This document shows, in pieces, positions 7,487-16,821 of a stretch of DNA of 50,209 nt. The stretch is from Desulfallas thermosapovorans DSM 6562. Its GTDB lineage: Bacteria; Bacillota; Desulfotomaculia; Desulfotomaculales; Desulfallaceae. Below the pieces are notes generated by a model. It was not told the origin of the DNA, searched no databases, and saw only the letters and a program-made list of their open reading frames with translations. A program made the position numbers and the translations under genes. The stretch covers positions 1-50,209 of the forward strand of contig NZ_VNHM01000018.1 of NCBI RefSeq assembly GCF_008124625.1. Reading direction: 5' to 3'. The first letter of the stretch is position 1. Each line of letters begins with the position of its first letter.

Positions 7487-7903
7487 TCATAGAAATGTTT
7501 TTACTACTGCCCCAACGAATGTTCTAAAATCATCCAGGTTCCTTATCAGAATCTGGTATACCTCTTTATCGTCCACATCATGATACAGGTGAACCACCCG
7601 GTTTCGAAACTTGGCCATCTGTAAAAAAACCGGCTCTTTTTTTTGAGGTAGAATCCCTTGCTCTACTAAAATTAATAAGGCTTCGGCATAAGTTTTGGGG
7701 GTTCGGAAACGTTCCCTGGCAATAACATGGTGGGCAATATCCAGCATCGCTTCAATGGATACCTGTATCAGGTGCTTTGCGGATTCAACATAGTAGAACT
7801 TGTCTAAAAATTCTTCGGGGGAGAGCTGGGCCAGGATTTCCAATTTGGCTAAATTGTCCTCGATAACACTGATTTTATGCTGGACAACTTCCTTATCCAC
7901 CAT
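7487..7903 (-). CDS. hepT: HepT-like HEPN-domain toxin (DUF86)
   Basis: A helical protein of about 138 residues. It carries the HEPN signature near its end: RNRVVHLY, that is R-x4-H followed by x-Y. HepT proteins are RNA-cleaving or RNA-blocking toxins neutralised by a partner MNT nucleotidyltransferase, which in the best studied pairs adds AMPs to the toxin tyrosine. That partner lies immediately upstream and overlaps this gene. I chose the second ATG at 7903 because AGGAGG sits 9 bases before it. The first ATG at 7909 would be only 3 bases away. The gene ends just before a GGGGAC hairpin repeat. Confidence 0.85.
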   Translation of the reverse strand: MVDKEVVQHKISVIEDNLAKLEILAQLSPEEFLDKFYYVESAKHLIQVSIEAMLDIAHHVIARERFRTPKTYAEALLILVEQGILPQKKEPVFLQMAKFRNRVVHLYHDVDDKEVYQILIRNLDDFRTFVGAVVKTFL

Positions 7904-8336
7904 CGACATAAACCTCCTTTAGCGCCTTACACCTTTCGCGCTGAAAGTTTTTCAGGTGGTATGCATAATCAAAATAGTACTTGTAAGTATCCTCCAAAAA
8001 ATTACTGGTCGATACATAATCCGCCTGGTAGATCAATTGACCCTCCGCAATAGCACGGTAACGTAGTTGTATGGGCGACCTGTTTAAATTAACCACGTCA
8101 ATTCGATCTGTTTCCAGTGCCAAACTTAGAGCAACTTCCAGTTCCAGTTCCGTCCTTAAATCCGCCTTAATTTCCGGCAAAAAGATAACACCCAGGTCAA
8201 TATCGCTATGGATGGTTTGATACTCTGTGCCGTATGAGCCAAATAAATACACCGCAGCTATGTCGGTTCTTTGCTCCAGTACCCTGACTACTTTGCCAAT
8301 AGGAACATCAATTTTCTTTCTTTCCCCGGACTGCAT
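7893..8336 (-). CDS. mntA: MntA-like minimal nucleotidyltransferase antitoxin
   Basis: A 147-residue protein of the MNT nucleotidyltransferase family. It has the exact GSX10DXD active-site motif: GSY at about residue 33 and DID ten residues after the GS. This is the fingerprint of MntA-type antitoxins that AMPylate HepT. The gene precedes hepT and overlaps it by about 11 to 17 bases, the standard order for this toxin-antitoxin class, which implies translational coupling and tight stoichiometry. The ribosome site before ATG 8336 is weak. Such pairs are often phage-defence or plasmid-stability modules and are commonly exchanged between strains. Confidence 0.87.
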   Translation of the reverse strand: MQSGERKKIDVPIGKVVRVLEQRTDIAAVYLFGSYGTEYQTIHSDIDLGVIFLPEIKADLRTELELEVALSLALETDRIDVVNLNRSPIQLRYRAIAEGQLIYQADYVSTSNFLEDTYKYYFDYAYHLKNFQRERCKALKEVYVDGG

Positions 8337-9432: not shown

Positions 9433-10983
9433 CTATATCAGCACGGCTACCTCGTCCCGGTCCAGGACGTTCCGAATATCATGCACGGCCTGTTTGAAGG
9501 AGCGATCCTCCCCGGCAGCCCGTTCCACTTGCCGCAGCACATCGATCTCCCGGCGGATAATGGAAAAAATATCCCCCTCATGTAAATTGCAGCGTTTCTG
9601 CAGTTCCTCAAAGGTAGCCCCTTTATACCAGGCTTCGGCCAGCGGACCGGGCAGCGGCGACCATACACAAAGGTGTTCGGGCACACCGGCGTCCAGCAGT
9701 TTGTTTCTTAACAGCGCTGCATTGTCCATATTGTACTCGCCGGGCAAAACCACTTCGTCCCGGCCGGGCTGGTAATCAATCCCGGCTAAAATGGCGGCCG
9801 CTTCGGCCGGTGCGGCATCCCGCAGTATGCCGGAAAACACCAGCTCGGTGACCAGTATTTCTTGTACATGTACGTGTAATGCAAACAATCCCCGGGGCAG
9901 CAAAGTTTTACCCTCAATGAAACCAAGCTTCTCCAGCAGGTCACACATGCGTCGAAATTCCTGGTGATAGTCCACGGCATATTTTTTCAGCTGGCGGTTA
10001 CGCCGGACCAGTTCCTTTTTCCGCTCCACCAGCGCAGTAATTTCATCATGGGCGTCCCGGCAGCCATGGTGAAAACACCCTTTGGCGGGCTGGGCCAGAA
10101 TGGATTTGATTTCAGCTATCCGCCCCGGCACTTCGGGTTTGTGCCGCCGCCTGCGGTTGCGCAGCCGGTTCAGCTCTTTCTTTAACTTTTCCCGCAACAT
10201 GGGGCAGGACGGCCCGTCTTTATCCTGGCAAAAGTTTTTACGCAACGTATAAATCTTTTCCTCCACCGTTTCCAGTTCTCCGGCCAGGCTAGCAATTTCC
10301 CGGTTGTTCTGGTAAACCGCCAGGTTTTGGGACAGGTAACGTTCTATTTCCTCGTCAGTTTTCCAGTGCAGCAGGCTGAGGGCAGTATTGGGGGAAATGA
10401 CCAGCCGGCCCCGCACGGGCTCCACCTGGCTTTCATCGAAAAAGCCGGTTTGTTCGGGAAATTTTTCATCTATATTAATATAGACATGTCCCACCTTATC
10501 AAAACCGCGCCGTCCGGCTCGCCCGGCCATCTGAAAAAACTCCCGGTTCAACAGCCCCCGGTGGTTACGCCCGTCCCATTTGCGGGTGGAATCAAAAACC
10601 GTACTGGCCGCCGGAAAGTTGATGCCCACAGCGAAGGTTTCGGTGCAAAAAAGGACAAAGATCAGCCTGGCTTCGTAAAGGTTCTCCACCAGCTCCTTCA
10701 AGGCGGGGGATAAGCCCGCGTGGTGGTAACCAATGCCCTGGAGCAGCAGGCGCCGCAGGTGCTTGCGCCGTCCCCCGAATAAACCCGGGGTAATCTGCTC
10801 CGCCCTTTCCATCATTTCACTCACCCGGCTCTTTTCCCCGGGCAGCAAAAAGTCCCACTCCCGGCTCAGTTCTTCCGCCAGGAGCTCGGTACGTCCCCTG
10901 CTGAATACAAAATAAAGGGCGGGCAGGTGGTCCTGGATAGATTCGATCACGCCCACACACATGGCGTTATTTACTAAAGCCAA
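9433..10983 (-). CDS. Ski2/Mtr4-like helicase, C-terminal half (second RecA domain)
   Basis: A 516-residue frame holding the second half of an SF2 helicase: ALYFVFSRGR (motif IV region), YHHAGLSPALK, FCTETFAVGINFPA (motif V) and QMAGRAGRRGFD (motif VI, beginning at Q151). The Ski2/Mtr4/HelY family normally has both RecA domains in one chain, and the first half is encoded just upstream in another frame. Residues C252, C260, C303 and C308 form two cysteine pairs in the insertion region and could bind a metal. The start would be TTG 10983, two bases after the upstream stop. A GGGGAGGGGG run 7-8 bases before it could act as a ribosome site. Either a frameshift mutation or error, or a true two-subunit helicase. 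Confidence 0.85.
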   Translation of the reverse strand: MALVNNAMCVGVIESIQDHLPALYFVFSRGRTELLAEELSREWDFLLPGEKSRVSEMMERAEQITPGLFGGRRKHLRRLLLQGIGYHHAGLSPALKELVENLYEARLIFVLFCTETFAVGINFPAASTVFDSTRKWDGRNHRGLLNREFFQMAGRAGRRGFDKVGHVYINIDEKFPEQTGFFDESQVEPVRGRLVISPNTALSLLHWKTDEEIERYLSQNLAVYQNNREIASLAGELETVEEKIYTLRKNFCQDKDGPSCPMLREKLKKELNRLRNRRRRHKPEVPGRIAEIKSILAQPAKGCFHHGCRDAHDEITALVERKKELVRRNRQLKKYAVDYHQEFRRMCDLLEKLGFIEGKTLLPRGLFALHVHVQEILVTELVFSGILRDAAPAEAAAILAGIDYQPGRDEVVLPGEYNMDNAALLRNKLLDAGVPEHLCVWSPLPGPLAEAWYKGATFEELQKRCNLHEGDIFSIIRREIDVLRQVERAAGEDRSFKQAVHDIRNVLDRDEVAVLI

Positions 10984-10985
10984 AT

Positions 10986-13277
10986 TTAATCCCCCTCCCC
11001 GCCGTTGCCATACATATAGTACCGGCTGCCCACCTGGCGCAGCGCCTCAATTTCATCCAGGGCTTCCTCTTCATCCAGCACCTCGTTATCCGGGGTAATC
11101 CAGTTAATTTCCAAAGGCACGGCCCGCCGGTATTCCTCCACCACCACTACCTTTTCTCCCCTTACTTCTTCCATCCACCGGGCCAATTCATGGATATTGG
11201 GCACGGTAGCGGACAAACCCAAGATGCGCATGTGGGGCGGTGCAAAAATGATACTTTCTTCCCAGGCCGTACCCCGCTCCACATCGTCAAGGTAATGCAC
11301 TTCGTCAAATATCACGTGGGATATATTATCCATCCATTCGGGATTGGCAAAACACCAGTTGCGGAAAATTTCAGTGGTCATGACCAAAAGCTGCGCCCGC
11401 TCGTTGATGGACACGTCACCGGTTATGAGGCCCACCCGGTAGTGACCGTACTGGCGGGCAAAATCCCGGTATTTCTGGTTGGAAAGGGCTTTGATGGGGG
11501 AAGTATAGACCACCTCCCGGCCCTGTTCCAATATACTTTCCACCAGCCGCTCGGCAATCAGTGTTTTACCGGTGCCGGTGGGCGCGGCCACCAGTACCGA
11601 ATAACCCTCCAGCAGGGCGGCAATGGCTTTTTGCTGGTAATCATCCAGTACTATCGGCCCGGGTTCGGTAACCTTTTCAACCTTATGCCGCCTGGGGCGC
11701 CGTTTTTTACGCCGCACCGGCCGGTCCTGGCTTTGGTCTGTTGCCTCACCCCATCCCGCCCGGATATCGGGCAAGTGCTCCAGTAAATCCTCCACGTCGC
11801 CCCGGCGCAAGTGGTATGCACCCCGCTCCGACCGGCCCGCACTGCGCAGGTGTCCTTCCCGGATCAACCGTTTGATTTGATCCTGGGTGATGGCCAGTAT
11901 TCTGGCGGCGTCGCCTGTTTTAATCTTCTCTGCCCGTCGCAGCAGCCTATCCATGTTGGGGGAACGGCGCAGTGTATCAACGGATACGCGCCAGTAACGC
12001 ACCACCCCCTCCATTTGAAACCCCTGCAGGTGTCCCAGTTCCCGCAGGCCGCCCACATCGCCGGGGCGTATCCCTAAAACCCGTCCCGCTTCCCGGGCGG
12101 TGTAAGAATTGTCTATCAGGTAAGCCACCGGCACCGTCGGGCCGCCCCGGGCCGGCAAGTCCAGCCCGGTAATTTCCTTTAGTTCACGGGCAATTTTGCC
12201 CGGGTCTGATTTAATAGGCGCGCAAAATAGCTCCCGCCGGCCTATTTTAAGTTCCACGCAGCCGGCCTGCAAAGCCTCCTGCCGGGCCAGTTTACGCTCC
12301 CGGGGAGCAAAATCCTCCAGGGTGAAAAAGGAACGCCCACCCATTTTTTGTTGTAATGTATAGTGCACATAGGCCAGTATTTCCCGGCGGCGCAGTTCCC
12401 CGGCGCCCTCGGGCCTTGTTTCCACAGTGACGCGCCCGTCGGGCAGTATCACAAAGGGGGGCTCTTCCCGCCCCTTTTTAATATGGGCCACCAGTTTCTT
12501 GTGGCGTTTGAACATTCGAACAAATTCCTTGCGGCTGATGGGTTCACTGCGGGATAAATACCTGCCCACCTCGTCCCAGGCCGCGTCGCTGTCCGGATGG
12601 GTATAACGCCCGTCCGGCAGGCAAACCAAATGGGCCACCGCCTCGGGGAGCAGCTTTTCACCTAAAGACCGGTTAATTTCTTCCTCCGACAGTGTTTCGT
12701 GCTCCTCAATTAATTCGTCCACCTGCTGGCGCTGCCGCTGCACGCGCCGGCTGTGGGCCCGGGCCTCCTCGGCCCGGCGGGTTAGCTCTGCCTGCCCCGC
12801 CGCAGTATCCCTTAATGTATAGAAATGGCCAGGCAGCATAACTACATCGGGCATACTTCCGGGCAGCCTGGCCGGAAGTTCCACCGCCAAAGTTTCCGAT
12901 AGCTGCTCCCGGGTGCGGGGTACCCCGTCAACCAAAAGCTCTCTGATCTTCTCCTGAACTTCGGCCAAAAGCCTTCCCTTCAACACGGGCATATTGGAGG
13001 AAATTATTTTAGCGGCCATCCTTTTTTCTTTTCCGGCAAGTGCCCCGGCGGTATCCCCGGTACCGTTGGGACGGCTCAAAAATACCTGTTCCGGAGGGCC
13101 GCCCTGGGGCCCGGTCACCGTCACCTCACCCCGGGTAGCCAGGGATTGCAGCGCACCGGAAATCTCGTCAAGGTGGCTCCCGGCCCGGTTCCATAAATCG
13201 GGCAGGCTGACTTGTCCACCGGCCGGTATATGCTCAAGTAATATTTTTTTCAGTTCTTCTGTTCTGGCGTTTGCCAA
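10986..13277 (-). CDS. Ski2/Mtr4-like helicase, N-terminal half (HTH region plus first RecA domain)
   Basis: A 763-residue frame. The C-terminal third is a DEAD/DEAH-type ATPase domain: Walker A AAPTGTGKT (G570, K571), TSPIKALSNQK (motif Ia), LITGD, DEVH at 658-661 (motif II) and LGLSATVPN (motif III). These belong to the Ski2/Mtr4/HelY family of RNA or DNA helicases. The first 500 residues are charged and contain several helix-turn-helix-like stretches, two of which (around YTAREAGRVLGI and KTGDAARILAITQDQIK) look like excisionase/MerR-type folds. The start is TTG 13277, with CAGGAGAG about 9 bases upstream. The frame ends at 10986 beside a run of five G, and the second RecA domain follows in another frame. 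Confidence 0.87.
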   Translation of the reverse strand: MANARTEELKKILLEHIPAGGQVSLPDLWNRAGSHLDEISGALQSLATRGEVTVTGPQGGPPEQVFLSRPNGTGDTAGALAGKEKRMAAKIISSNMPVLKGRLLAEVQEKIRELLVDGVPRTREQLSETLAVELPARLPGSMPDVVMLPGHFYTLRDTAAGQAELTRRAEEARAHSRRVQRQRQQVDELIEEHETLSEEEINRSLGEKLLPEAVAHLVCLPDGRYTHPDSDAAWDEVGRYLSRSEPISRKEFVRMFKRHKKLVAHIKKGREEPPFVILPDGRVTVETRPEGAGELRRREILAYVHYTLQQKMGGRSFFTLEDFAPRERKLARQEALQAGCVELKIGRRELFCAPIKSDPGKIARELKEITGLDLPARGGPTVPVAYLIDNSYTAREAGRVLGIRPGDVGGLRELGHLQGFQMEGVVRYWRVSVDTLRRSPNMDRLLRRAEKIKTGDAARILAITQDQIKRLIREGHLRSAGRSERGAYHLRRGDVEDLLEHLPDIRAGWGEATDQSQDRPVRRKKRRPRRHKVEKVTEPGPIVLDDYQQKAIAALLEGYSVLVAAPTGTGKTLIAERLVESILEQGREVVYTSPIKALSNQKYRDFARQYGHYRVGLITGDVSINERAQLLVMTTEIFRNWCFANPEWMDNISHVIFDEVHYLDDVERGTAWEESIIFAPPHMRILGLSATVPNIHELARWMEEVRGEKVVVVEEYRRAVPLEINWITPDNEVLDEEEALDEIEALRQVGSRYYMYGNGGEGD

Positions 13278-13561: not shown

Positions 13562-14314
13562 TCAGCCGCCCTTCCTTTTAAGAATTTCATTCCACAACAG
13601 ATCCATGGTTTTACCGGCCGAATGGTTAATGATCAGACTGGCTTTGCCATCCGCCATGGTGTTGTCAAGGTTAATTATGGCCAGTTTACCGGCCAGCATG
13701 GGCAGGTAATTGGCGGGTTCCACCTCCAGGCTGGAGCCTATCACCAGCAATAATTCACTGGTGGAAACCTCTTTGAGGGCCTCTGTAAAATCACCGGTCA
13801 GTTGATCACCGAAAAAAACGCAGTCAGGCTTGTAAATACCCTGACAGTCATTGCACCGGGGTGGTATTTGGCTGGCCATCACCTTCTCCAACAGACCATC
13901 CCAGGCAATTTGCCCCCCGCACTGCATGCAGGTTGCCGAGCGCAGGTGCCCGTGCAGTTCCCATACCCTGGCTGAACCGGCCCGCTGGTGCAGGCTGTCT
14001 ACGTTTTGAGTAACCACCCCGGCCAGCATACCTGCATTTTCCAATGCCGCCAGCACCTCATGGGCCCTATTGGGCCGGGCATTATTGATGGAGGCCAGGT
14101 GAGGTAGTCCGGCCTGGTAAAAGGCGGCGGGCCGGTACCTAAAAGTGTCGGCGGAAAAGGCATACATGGGATCAACCCTGGACCACAGCCCGCCCGGACT
14201 GCGAAAGTCAGGAATACCGCTTTCAGTGGATATACCGGCCCCGGTCAGCGCCACTGTCTTTTTGCTGGCCAGCAGCATATCAGCAAGCCTGGCCACCTGC
14301 TCTTGCAAAGACAT
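13562..14314 (-). CDS. cobB: Sir2-family NAD-dependent protein deacylase
   Basis: A 250-residue sirtuin that removes acyl groups from lysines using NAD+, giving nicotinamide and O-acyl-ADP-ribose. Visible motifs are GAGIS (25-29) with SGIPDFR, TQNVDSLHQRAG, the catalytic histidine in ELHG, two zinc-binding CxxC pairs (CMQC, CNDC), FFGD and VIGSSLEVEPA. Length and order are normal for the bacterial class. It is transcribed with the AmmeMemoRadiSam genes upstream, with a 56-base gap, so it could share their message. In a cell using acyl-CoA beta-oxidation it could reverse acylation of metabolic enzymes; that is inference. Confidence 0.93.
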   Translation of the reverse strand: MSLQEQVARLADMLLASKKTVALTGAGISTESGIPDFRSPGGLWSRVDPMYAFSADTFRYRPAAFYQAGLPHLASINNARPNRAHEVLAALENAGMLAGVVTQNVDSLHQRAGSARVWELHGHLRSATCMQCGGQIAWDGLLEKVMASQIPPRCNDCQGIYKPDCVFFGDQLTGDFTEALKEVSTSELLLVIGSSLEVEPANYLPMLAGKLAIINLDNTMADGKASLIINHSAGKTMDLLWNEILKRKGG

Positions 14315-14370
14315 AAAAGCACCCTTTCTTCCTTAATAAACTTTAAAAAACAACCCTTGGTGCATTTAAT

Positions 14371-15372
14371 TCACATCACCATGGAGATCTTTTCCCCGCA
14401 ACGGGAACAGACTCCGCCCGATATCCCCCGCACCCGGGTATGGTAACCTTCCCGGTCAACAAGCACTTCACCGCAACCCGGGCAAACAGTACTGGAAGAT
14501 TTCATGTGCGGGGCATTACCCACGTACACATAGCGCAGCTTGCGCCGGGCTATATCCCGGGCCTGCCTTAAAGTTTCCTCGGGGGTGGGGGGCAAATCCA
14601 ATTTATAATTGGGAAAGTAGCGGGAAAAGTGCAGTGGTATATCCGGGTCCAGTCCCGCCAGCCAGTCCACCAGGCGGCTGATCTCCCCGGGGCTGTCGTT
14701 TAAGCCGGTCACCAAAAGGGTGGTGATTTCCAGGTGGCAGTGCCCGCGGGCTACTTCCACGGTGCGCAAAACCGGGTCCAGCCGGCCCCCGCAGGTGGAG
14801 CGGTAAAAATCATCGGTAAAGGCTTTAACGTCAATGTTCATCGCATCAATATAAGGAAGCAGCTCCCGCAGCGGCTGTTCATTGACATAACCATTGGTCA
14901 CCAGCACATTTTTAAGTCCCGCCTCCCTGGCCAGCCCGGCGGTATCGTAAACATATTCATACCACATGAAGGGCTCTGAATAGGTATAAGCCAGCCCCAC
15001 GCAGGGGTAACCGTGCTTTTTTTGCCGCAGGGCCAGTTGTACCGCTTGTTCCGGGCTCAGGTAAGTGGTGTCGGGGGTTTCCTGGGCTATTTGCCAGTTT
15101 TGGCAAAAACCGCAGCGTAAATTGCAGCCCACCGTTCCCAGGGAAAATATCACATGACCGGGATAAAAATGGTATAACGGCTTCTTCTCAATGGGATCCA
15201 GGGCATAGGAGGAACACTGGCCGTAATTGGCAGCATACAGGGTACCCCCCTGGTTTTGCCGCACCCGGCAAAAACCCTGTTTACCCGGGGCAATGTTGCA
15301 AAGCCGGGGACACACTTTGCAATTAACCTGCTCCCCGGGGCCTTTGGTGTAAAACATGACCTCGCGCCGCAC
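14371..15372 (-). CDS. amrS: AmmeMemoRadiSam system radical SAM enzyme
   Basis: A radical SAM protein of about 333 residues. The Fe-S cluster motif is CNLRCGFC (C-x3-C-x2-C), preceded by an N-terminal cysteine set (CKVCPRLCNIAPGKQGFC) and followed by a C-terminal CPGC/CSRC pair that could bind another metal. This matches the AmrS family, which is always found with Memo and AMMECR1 proteins and whose reaction is not settled. I prefer GTG 15372, with AAGGAG 8 bases before it. The longer frame begins at ATG 15390, which itself contains that ribosome site. It follows the Memo-AMMECR1 gene by a few tens of bases and is surely cotranscribed with it. Confidence 0.9.
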   Translation of the reverse strand: MRREVMFYTKGPGEQVNCKVCPRLCNIAPGKQGFCRVRQNQGGTLYAANYGQCSSYALDPIEKKPLYHFYPGHVIFSLGTVGCNLRCGFCQNWQIAQETPDTTYLSPEQAVQLALRQKKHGYPCVGLAYTYSEPFMWYEYVYDTAGLAREAGLKNVLVTNGYVNEQPLRELLPYIDAMNIDVKAFTDDFYRSTCGGRLDPVLRTVEVARGHCHLEITTLLVTGLNDSPGEISRLVDWLAGLDPDIPLHFSRYFPNYKLDLPPTPEETLRQARDIARRKLRYVYVGNAPHMKSSSTVCPGCGEVLVDREGYHTRVRGISGGVCSRCGEKISMVM

Positions 15373-15411
15373 CCCACCAACTCCTTGCATATATAATACT
15401 GGAACAGGAAC

Positions 15412-16821
15412 CTACCGGTACCTTACCACCTCAAAACGTTCCAACCGCACGGCCTCTCCCGGTCCAATGCCCGCCTTCTGCCTGGCAATGTTCACTTGTT
15501 CCTCCACAGTGTTAATGCCTTCCAGATCGGGCAGCAGCAGTCCCCGCCTGCCCCCCGCGGAGACGATAACTCCGTAACGGCGGGGATCCAGTTCATTTAG
15601 CCCCTGCACCGGCTCGGGGTCGGTTAAAACATCCACTGATATATCCAGTTCCGGCAATTCCCCCGGTTCCACCGGGTTAAACCGGGGATCCCGAATAGCC
15701 GCGCTAATGGCGTTATGGGCAATTTCCTCCGCTATAGTATTATATGTGGGAGCGATGGTACCGATACAACCCCTGAGCTGGCCGTGTTTTTTCAGTGAAA
15801 CAAACACCCCGGCCCGGTTGTTTTTAAATTCCTCCGGCACCTGGGCCGGGTCAAACAGTTTATTCTTTGCACCGCTGAAATATCGCTCCAGTACCTGTCG
15901 GGCAAGCCGCACGGGAAAACTTTCCGCCGCCCTTTTGGCCCCGGCGCGGTACAGCGCGGCTTGCCGCAGTTTTCCAAGAAACAAGCGGTTATCATCCCGG
16001 GCACCGGGCACCAGTGCAGCCACCATATAGCCAACCCCGAAGGGTCCTTCATAGGACAGTACCTCACTTCCTATCGTAACCCCATCCAGGGTACCCAGCA
16101 TCATAATGATGGAACGCAGCCCGCACTCCCCGGCATTTTCCGCCAGTTCGGGATCCAAACCGCATATACCTTCCACATCCGCCGCCCCCACCAGTTCCAC
16201 CAACCGGCTGTCAAACTCCTTCCCGGCGGGATGATAGCCCGCCGGCGCATCCGGGGTCAGCCGGTGGGAAAGATCCGCACTGGCCAATACCGCTATTTTG
16301 CGGTTCAATTGGTCAGCAGCTTCCCGCACCGCCACACCGAAGGCATATAGCTCATGGAAGGGCAGCAGCCCCATGGATACATGCACCAGAGGAAGGTTTA
16401 CACCGGCCTCCCGGATAAAATAAAGGGGTGCCGTAATACCGTGATCCAGCCCGGTGGATACACCATAGCGGCCGGCCAAGGCATTGTCCAGAGCAGCCAC
16501 CGTAATACCTTTCCCGGCGGCCACCTTTCCAATGGCCTGCATCAGTTCCACATCATTGTTCAGTGCAAAGCGCACCCCGGCAGCACCGAACCGGCCCAGG
16601 TCACCCTCGAGTCTCTTTACTGCATTAATGCCAATGCCATCGCTGAACACAGCACCATGAGGAGTAATCATCACCAGCGTGTCCGCACCGCTATCACTGA
16701 CCCGCCTCCCCAATTCCAGCATAGCCCCTTTGGTGTGTGATACATCTTCGTCCCGGCCCTGTCCCACCTCGGGCACCATCACCGGCGGGTGGGGACAAAT
16801 ACCACAAAAAACAACAGGCAT
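15412..16821 (-). CDS. Fused Memo-AMMECR1 protein (AmmeMemoRadiSam proteins B and A)
   Basis: A 469-residue fusion. Residues 1 to about 270 are a Memo/LigB-type domain related to class III extradiol dioxygenases, beginning CGICPHPPVMVPEVG and containing MITPHG, LDHGITAPLYF and SADLSHR, with histidines in the usual metal-binding places. Residues from about 285 to the end are an AMMECR1 domain with VSLKKHGQLRGCIG and its conserved LRGCIG core. In many genomes the two are separate genes beside the radical SAM partner, so the fusion supports a physical complex. The substrate is unknown. The ribosome site before ATG 16821 is weak. The LysE gene upstream is 82 bases away in the same direction. Confidence 0.9.
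   Translation of the reverse strand: MPVVFCGICPHPPVMVPEVGQGRDEDVSHTKGAMLELGRRVSDSGADTLVMITPHGAVFSDGIGINAVKRLEGDLGRFGAAGVRFALNNDVELMQAIGKVAAGKGITVAALDNALAGRYGVSTGLDHGITAPLYFIREAGVNLPLVHVSMGLLPFHELYAFGVAVREAADQLNRKIAVLASADLSHRLTPDAPAGYHPAGKEFDSRLVELVGAADVEGICGLDPELAENAGECGLRSIIMMLGTLDGVTIGSEVLSYEGPFGVGYMVAALVPGARDDNRLFLGKLRQAALYRAGAKRAAESFPVRLARQVLERYFSGAKNKLFDPAQVPEEFKNNRAGVFVSLKKHGQLRGCIGTIAPTYNTIAEEIAHNAISAAIRDPRFNPVEPGELPELDISVDVLTDPEPVQGLNELDPRRYGVIVSAGGRRGLLLPDLEGINTVEEQVNIARQKAGIGPGEAVRLERFEVVRYR

Follow-up and report, generated by a model that had tools for sequence, protein, structure and literature searches.

A Ski2/Mtr4-like helicase encoded as two proteins, divided between its RecA domains, in the Desulfotomaculia

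The window analysed here is a stretch of 50,209 nucleotides from the bacterium Desulfallas thermosapovorans DSM 6562 (contig NZ_VNHM01000018.1, positions 1 to 50,209; draft assembly GCF_008124625.1, 48 contigs). On its minus strand it harbours two neighbouring genes that between them encode the parts of a Ski2/Mtr4-like superfamily 2 helicase. Gene 1 (13277..10986), characterized by its open reading frame, Pfam matches and substitution pattern, starts with TTG and specifies 763 amino acids: this putative N subunit consists of an N-terminal extension followed by the first RecA domain, RecA1, with motifs I, II and III. The extension, approximately 535 residues long (11673..13277), is predicted to be a string of winged-helix or MerR-like helix-turn-helix units with long helices. 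It includes an HTH_17, or excisionase-like, Pfam domain (residues 454–500; 11778..11918), and RecA1 is recognized as a DEAD domain (residues 546–697; 11187..11642). Gene 2 (10983..9433), delineated by its open frame and Pfam matches, also starts with TTG and specifies 516 amino acids, the putative C subunit, which comprises RecA2 with motifs IV, V and VI, a helical region and a DSHCT domain. Pfam detects Helicase_C within RecA2 (residues 83–160; 10504..10737) and DSHCT (PF08148; residues 363–512; 9448..9897), the latter with 61.7 bits against a cut-off of 22.7. This is the sole DSHCT match in the genome; a control set of 14 genomes yielded one in Synechococcus elongatus and in Corynebacterium glutamicum but in none of the other 12.

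The stop codon of gene 1, TAA (10986..10988), and the TTG of gene 2 (10981..10983) are separated by two bases, and gene 2 lies in the -1 (that is, +2) frame relative to gene 1. The plus strand carries CCCCC at 10991–10995 and CCCC at 10997–11000; on the minus strand this is the G-rich run GGGGAGGGGG (10991..11000), which is still inside gene 1 and is read, from its energy of pairing with the anti-Shine–Dalgarno sequence, as the ribosome site of gene 2. An earlier note, made from the letters alone, had the first frame ending at 10986 after motif III and the second opening at TTG 10983 in the -1 frame with motifs IV–VI, beside the C runs of five and four; coordinates, runs and motif placement all agree with the present analysis. 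Three explanations had been offered there: a sequencing error or mutation confined to this strain, programmed frameshifting, or a two-subunit helicase whose second gene uses the G-rich run as its ribosome site.

The proteins resemble the two halves of one motor. By sequence, the solved structures closest to the first protein are Ski2 and Mtr4, and those closest to the second are Mtr4 (DOB1) in first place and also SKI2W/FRH. Motif and ribosome-site counts were made on 75 of 80 distinct split rows, since L128, L136, L187, L183 and L120 lie at an edge or gap or are decayed or truncated. All six motifs are kept in order in 75/75 of these loci, with I, II (DExH) and III in the first protein and IV–VI in the second; a loose Walker-like pattern is also present in two of the 75 C halves. 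Across seven close relatives, pairwise ratios of nonsynonymous to synonymous substitution rates (dN/dS) are 0.049–0.088 for the RecA1 part and 0.036–0.072 for the C half, approximate values since dS is near saturation; both halves are under purifying selection. The stretch from the SAT motif to the LYF motif is not shortened: it amounts to ~97 residues in the window, the two parts added, versus 88–98 in 12 fused proteins. The second protein also has a region with four conserved cysteines (C252, C260, C303 and C308; 10060..10230), a candidate metal site. Of 36 aligned rows, split and fused, 30 have cysteine at all four positions and the remaining six at none, and a zinc or iron-sulfur site is likely here, in the helical region that corresponds to the arch of Mtr4.

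The same break is widespread in the class to which the window organism belongs. The C half is present in 47/60 close relatives and in 88/113 class genomes, the other 25 giving no C-half match at the threshold used. A stop codon lies between RecA1 and RecA2 in 78 of the 88, and eight are fused. The two remaining genomes are unassigned: in G014 the contig ends before RecA1, and G081, with a C-half frame of 523 amino acids, lies outside the 87/88 genomes in which the DNA around the C half was examined. Two of the 78 split copies are doubtful, G074 being decayed with internal stops and G096 having an assembly gap. Single-contig assemblies account for eight of the 78 (G005, G022, G039, G048, G056, G075, G077 and G080). 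Carriers of the split include Sporotomaculum syntrophicum, Desulfoscipio geothermicus, Desulfotruncus arcticus, Desulfofundulus australicus, Desulforamulus aeronauticus, Pelotomaculum terephthalicicum and Desulforadius tongensis. The orthologues compared are thus not all fused, and an error or a one-strain mutation is rejected, since relatives share the break. The split is confirmed as real and exceeds a chance occurrence: it is not a product of sequencing error, frameshift or mutation in a single strain.

Outside the class the picture is different. In a sample of the phylum, 91 of 398 genomes match at 1e-30, 11 of them class members. For 75 of the 80 others the match falls in an open frame of at least 625 amino acids; the remaining five and three more loci with short or doubtful frames were inspected, and seven of these eight have both RecA domains in one frame, G473 starting at a contig end. 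A set of 19 outside-class loci whose DNA was inspected is entirely fused. A break between RecA1 and RecA2 was therefore found in 0/79 testable outside-class genomes, judged mostly by frame length. Apparent exceptions were discarded: L136 contains a run of N in a scaffold of a metagenome-assembled genome, L128 lies at a contig edge, and in G405 and G224 the frame is interrupted downstream of the point in question, with the RecA domains left unseparated. The G405 locus (L214; G405:C1:844500-850500) is a fused relative on a 3.2-Mb single contig, with a 505-amino-acid frame that breaks after motif VI and is followed by another frame, possibly a frameshift or a different split. The fused bacterial Ski2-like helicases, such as those of Carboxydocella (L124) and Desulfosporosinus (L137) in the same phylum and of the Pelotomaculum group (L107, L115), are direct homologues of the pair. 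They consist of one open frame of ~760 amino acids, or of 1,120–1,250 with an N-terminal extension, and identity in the C half is 35–40% outside the class and ~50% inside it.

The break itself is conserved; its details are not. Among the 78 split genomes the second frame is +2 in 28, +1 in 36 and 0 in 14 relative to the first, and the genus of the window mixes the relations (+2 in G000, G002, G003 and G005; +1 in G001, G004 and G006). Over the 75 distinct loci the distance from stop to chosen start ranges from -83 to +247 nucleotides, with 158 in L074, 176 in L087 and 247 in L084, and the second gene starts with ATG in 41, GTG in 19 and TTG in 15. Several loci have open frames that do not overlap at all, for example L017/L074 (155 nucleotides) and L018 (29 nucleotides). 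The ~155 nucleotides of intergenic DNA between the RecA1 and C-half genes in L017/L074 hold an apparent GC-rich inverted repeat. The junctions inspected show no slippery site that is conserved.

The second gene, for its part, tends to carry a ribosome site of its own. At the window TTG the best anti-Shine–Dalgarno energy, -11.0 kcal/mol, falls on the G-rich run (11000–10991) and beats every control stretch of the same gene; six same-genus relatives that were examined have ATG in place of TTG, preceded by a similar G-rich run. This is the part of the earlier note that gained support, namely a ribosome site serving the TTG of a two-subunit helicase. The mean best energy at the second start is -8.6 kcal/mol versus -4.4 in same-gene control stretches (75 loci); 67/75 loci reach -6 kcal/mol, and in 44/75 no control stretch is as strong as the second-start site. 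In a comparison whose rows are not independent, 75 split rows average -9.0 and 47 fused rows -6.5 kcal/mol, and three of eight fused rows from the class (L107, L116 and L166) still score -7.2 to -7.7.

A structure was predicted for a composite taken from Desulfoscipio geothermicus DSM 3669 (L075), in which the two genes share one frame and a single TAG was read through. The composite reaches a mean predicted local distance difference test score (pLDDT) of 87.5 and a predicted template modelling score (pTM) of 0.81, and it models as a complete Mtr4/Ski2 fold. It superposes on human MTR4 (6ieg_B) over residues 4–746 with Z 41.8 and a root-mean-square deviation of 4.7 for 703 aligned residues, and Foldseek and VIA-align place Mtr4, FRH and Ski2 along residues 4–748. 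The stop, at residue 231, lies within 219–237, the sole internal segment of the composite with pLDDT below 50.

The history of the break was addressed with a tree of 99 of the 127 distinct rows and approximately unbiased (AU) tests on 39 of the 127. Seven fused rows of the Pelotomaculum group, together with L129, nest among split rows. The AU test rejects a single clade of all split rows (p 0.00013). It also rejects a topology that keeps L129 apart from every split row (p 0.0025), a weaker test as the group was chosen after the tree had been seen. The tree forces five state changes, a count that takes in L136, which is an artefact, and L121, a long-branch row of uncertain class membership. In the Pelotomaculum group the stop and ribosome-site sequence of the split form, roughly ...GGAGGAGTGA... 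followed by the start, aligns to a linker that is coding in the fused form. These observations are best read as one old split followed by at least two re-fusions; one split and two fusions make the shortest account of the tree. That the gene was instead broken at this linker on many separate occasions appears unlikely. In favour of repeated splitting, the linker is disordered and tolerant, and the breaks differ in frame and position; without re-fusion, however, about seven or eight separate events would be required, a count on tree topologies in which some inner branches are weak, and the AU test does not leave the fused rows outside the split ones either way. Two very divergent split pairs, L184 (G024) and L185 (G018), 28–32% identical in the C half and with RecA1 frames of 288–313 amino acids, form a second group on long branches near the base of the tree, where their placement is unsure.

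Superfamily 2 helicases bind and hydrolyse ATP in the cleft that RecA1 forms with RecA2, and hence neither protein on its own should be a working motor. As neither has a full ATP site, the two very probably associate. The comparative evidence makes it very likely that the pair is a conserved two-subunit Ski2-like helicase, specified by two translationally linked neighbouring genes, with the ATP site between the subunits and assembly in trans. Gene 1 would supply an N subunit with RecA1 (Walker A, DExH and SAT) and gene 2 a C subunit with RecA2 (motifs IV–VI, including the arginine-finger motif VI) and DSHCT. The subunits would join as a heterodimer into a Ski2/Mtr4-like helicase, forming the ATP- and nucleic-acid-binding clefts at their interface, and the assembled enzyme would be expected to hydrolyse ATP and to unwind RNA or DNA. 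Separation might also bring an advantage, for instance regulated assembly. A broader proposal, that this is a natural two-subunit superfamily 2 motor with RecA1 and RecA2 separate in nearly all carriers of one order, an ATP site that exists only on assembly, activity set by association, one origin and at least two reversals by fusion, is held with more modest confidence as somewhat probable.

Several points weigh against the two-subunit reading. The fused genomes of the class indicate that members of the family can dispense with the split. The finding of RecA1 directly upstream of the C half, or in one frame with it, in 86/87 loci, the exception being a contig end, supports the two-subunit reading, but this position is partly imposed by the search rule (same strand, within 2.5 kb). 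Some control stretches are at least as strong as the ribosome site in 31/75 loci, and the site is unremarkable in L084, L085, L086, L087, L093 and L153. The composite, moreover, was folded as one chain from an alignment of 30 fused and six read-through rows and therefore cannot test association in trans.

Other explanations have to be set against these considerations. An error of sequencing or assembly, or gene decay in the window strain, would fit a draft genome with a break beside homopolymer runs, and isolated cases of the kind exist, such as the internal stops of G074 and the run of N in L136 outside the class. The recurrence of the break in 77 other class genomes, eight of them single contigs, and the purifying selection on both parts leave it a negligible chance. 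Programmed frameshifting or stop read-through, yielding a full-length fused protein with the short form as a by-product, is improbable as well. The G-rich run of the window does stand just before the stop, where a shift of -1 would merge the two frames, and the 14 genomes with both parts in one frame have a stop codon or codons between them. Nevertheless, frame relation, type of stop codon and spacing all vary, even within a genus, some pairs are 158–247 nucleotides apart, and the second gene is mostly served by a separate ribosome site and start; the frameshifting envisaged in the earlier note thus found no support, the frame relation changing inside the genus and intergenic DNA separating some pairs.

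Alternatively, the halves may no longer form one motor and may have taken on separate functions, RecA1 as an ATP-binding regulator, for example, and the RecA2-DSHCT part as a nucleic-acid-binding protein. This is improbable too, if a little less so than frameshifting. At least 34 of the 78 genomes with the split do have a very small RecA1 frame, of 242–325 amino acids. Yet every motif that acts across the RecA1–RecA2 cleft is kept in all the loci counted, halves have re-fused, and the pair forms a cluster in 30/30 loci compared, versus 9/30 for the next most common flanking cluster. That the pair stays adjacent while flanking genes change between families counts for a joint motor. If the two-subunit helicase is accepted, the short frames imply that the C subunit of those genomes is partnered by a small RecA1 protein that stands alone.

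The pair shares its motifs, RecA1–RecA2 order and DSHCT region with the eukaryotic exosome helicases Mtr4 and Ski2 and with archaeal Hel308. Solved Mtr4 and Ski2 chains span both RecA domains, whereas here these sit on two chains; the pair is a split variant derived from the Ski2/Mtr4-like superfamily 2 helicase family and departs from it in not being one polypeptide. In place of the Mtr4 arch it has a helical region that is shorter and contains four cysteines, although no search was aimed at an arch domain. The literature covered, in which subscription papers are thinly represented and a prior description is possible, yielded no helicase naturally broken between its RecA domains. The nearest case found is DISARM, in which a YprA-family superfamily 2 helicase resides in two neighbouring genes, drmA and drmB, whose products work as a complex; the break falls after RecA2, both RecA domains being in DrmA and the DUF1998 array separate (PMC12458937, PMC9142583). 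The present break differs in cutting through the ATP site, between the two RecA domains, with RecA2 in the second protein. A Pfam scan of the second protein at E up to 1 gives only DSHCT and Helicase_C, with no match to DUF1998 (MZB).

A normally single-chain helicase would thus be made as two proteins, cut between the motor halves, in an order of sulfate reducers and related bacteria. A tether joins the two RecA domains of superfamily 1 and 2 helicases, in which movement is coupled to ATP hydrolysis as the cleft between the domains opens and closes. A tether cut long ago, with several natural re-fusions, would amount to a natural test of its role; stepping with separable halves, assembly driven by ATP or nucleic acid, and regulation by splitting could all be tested in this system. 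There is also a warning for annotation: each half alone resembles a broken helicase gene, yet is not one.

The N-terminal extension is found in loci of the Desulfoscipio family, Desulforamulus and Pelotomaculum. Structure prediction renders the first 535 residues of the gene 1 product as successive winged-helix and MerR-like domains (pLDDT 86.8, pTM 0.52). Foldseek returned a single match with E < 0.001, a weak one to UFL1 (8qfc_B, TM score 0.19), and short MerR-type DNA-binding domains, RacA and BldC, at E 0.05–0.06. Much diverged (~25% identity between Desulfoscipio and Pelotomaculum) and present or absent by family, the extension seems from these comparisons to have been gained or lost more than once.

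Membership of a defence system was considered for the pair and rejected: PADLOC matches, to helicase models such as HamB and BrxHI, are limited to shared helicase domains, and the flanking genes form no conserved operon. Upstream of the pair and on the same strand, the window harbours Sir2, radical SAM and LigB-AMMECR1 genes (13562–16821), the latter two being common to nine of the 30 loci compared, the window's included. At 7487–8336, genes for a HepT-like ribonuclease (PF01934) and a Polbeta nucleotidyltransferase (PF18765) overlap by a few bases and resemble a HepT/MntA toxin–antitoxin pair.

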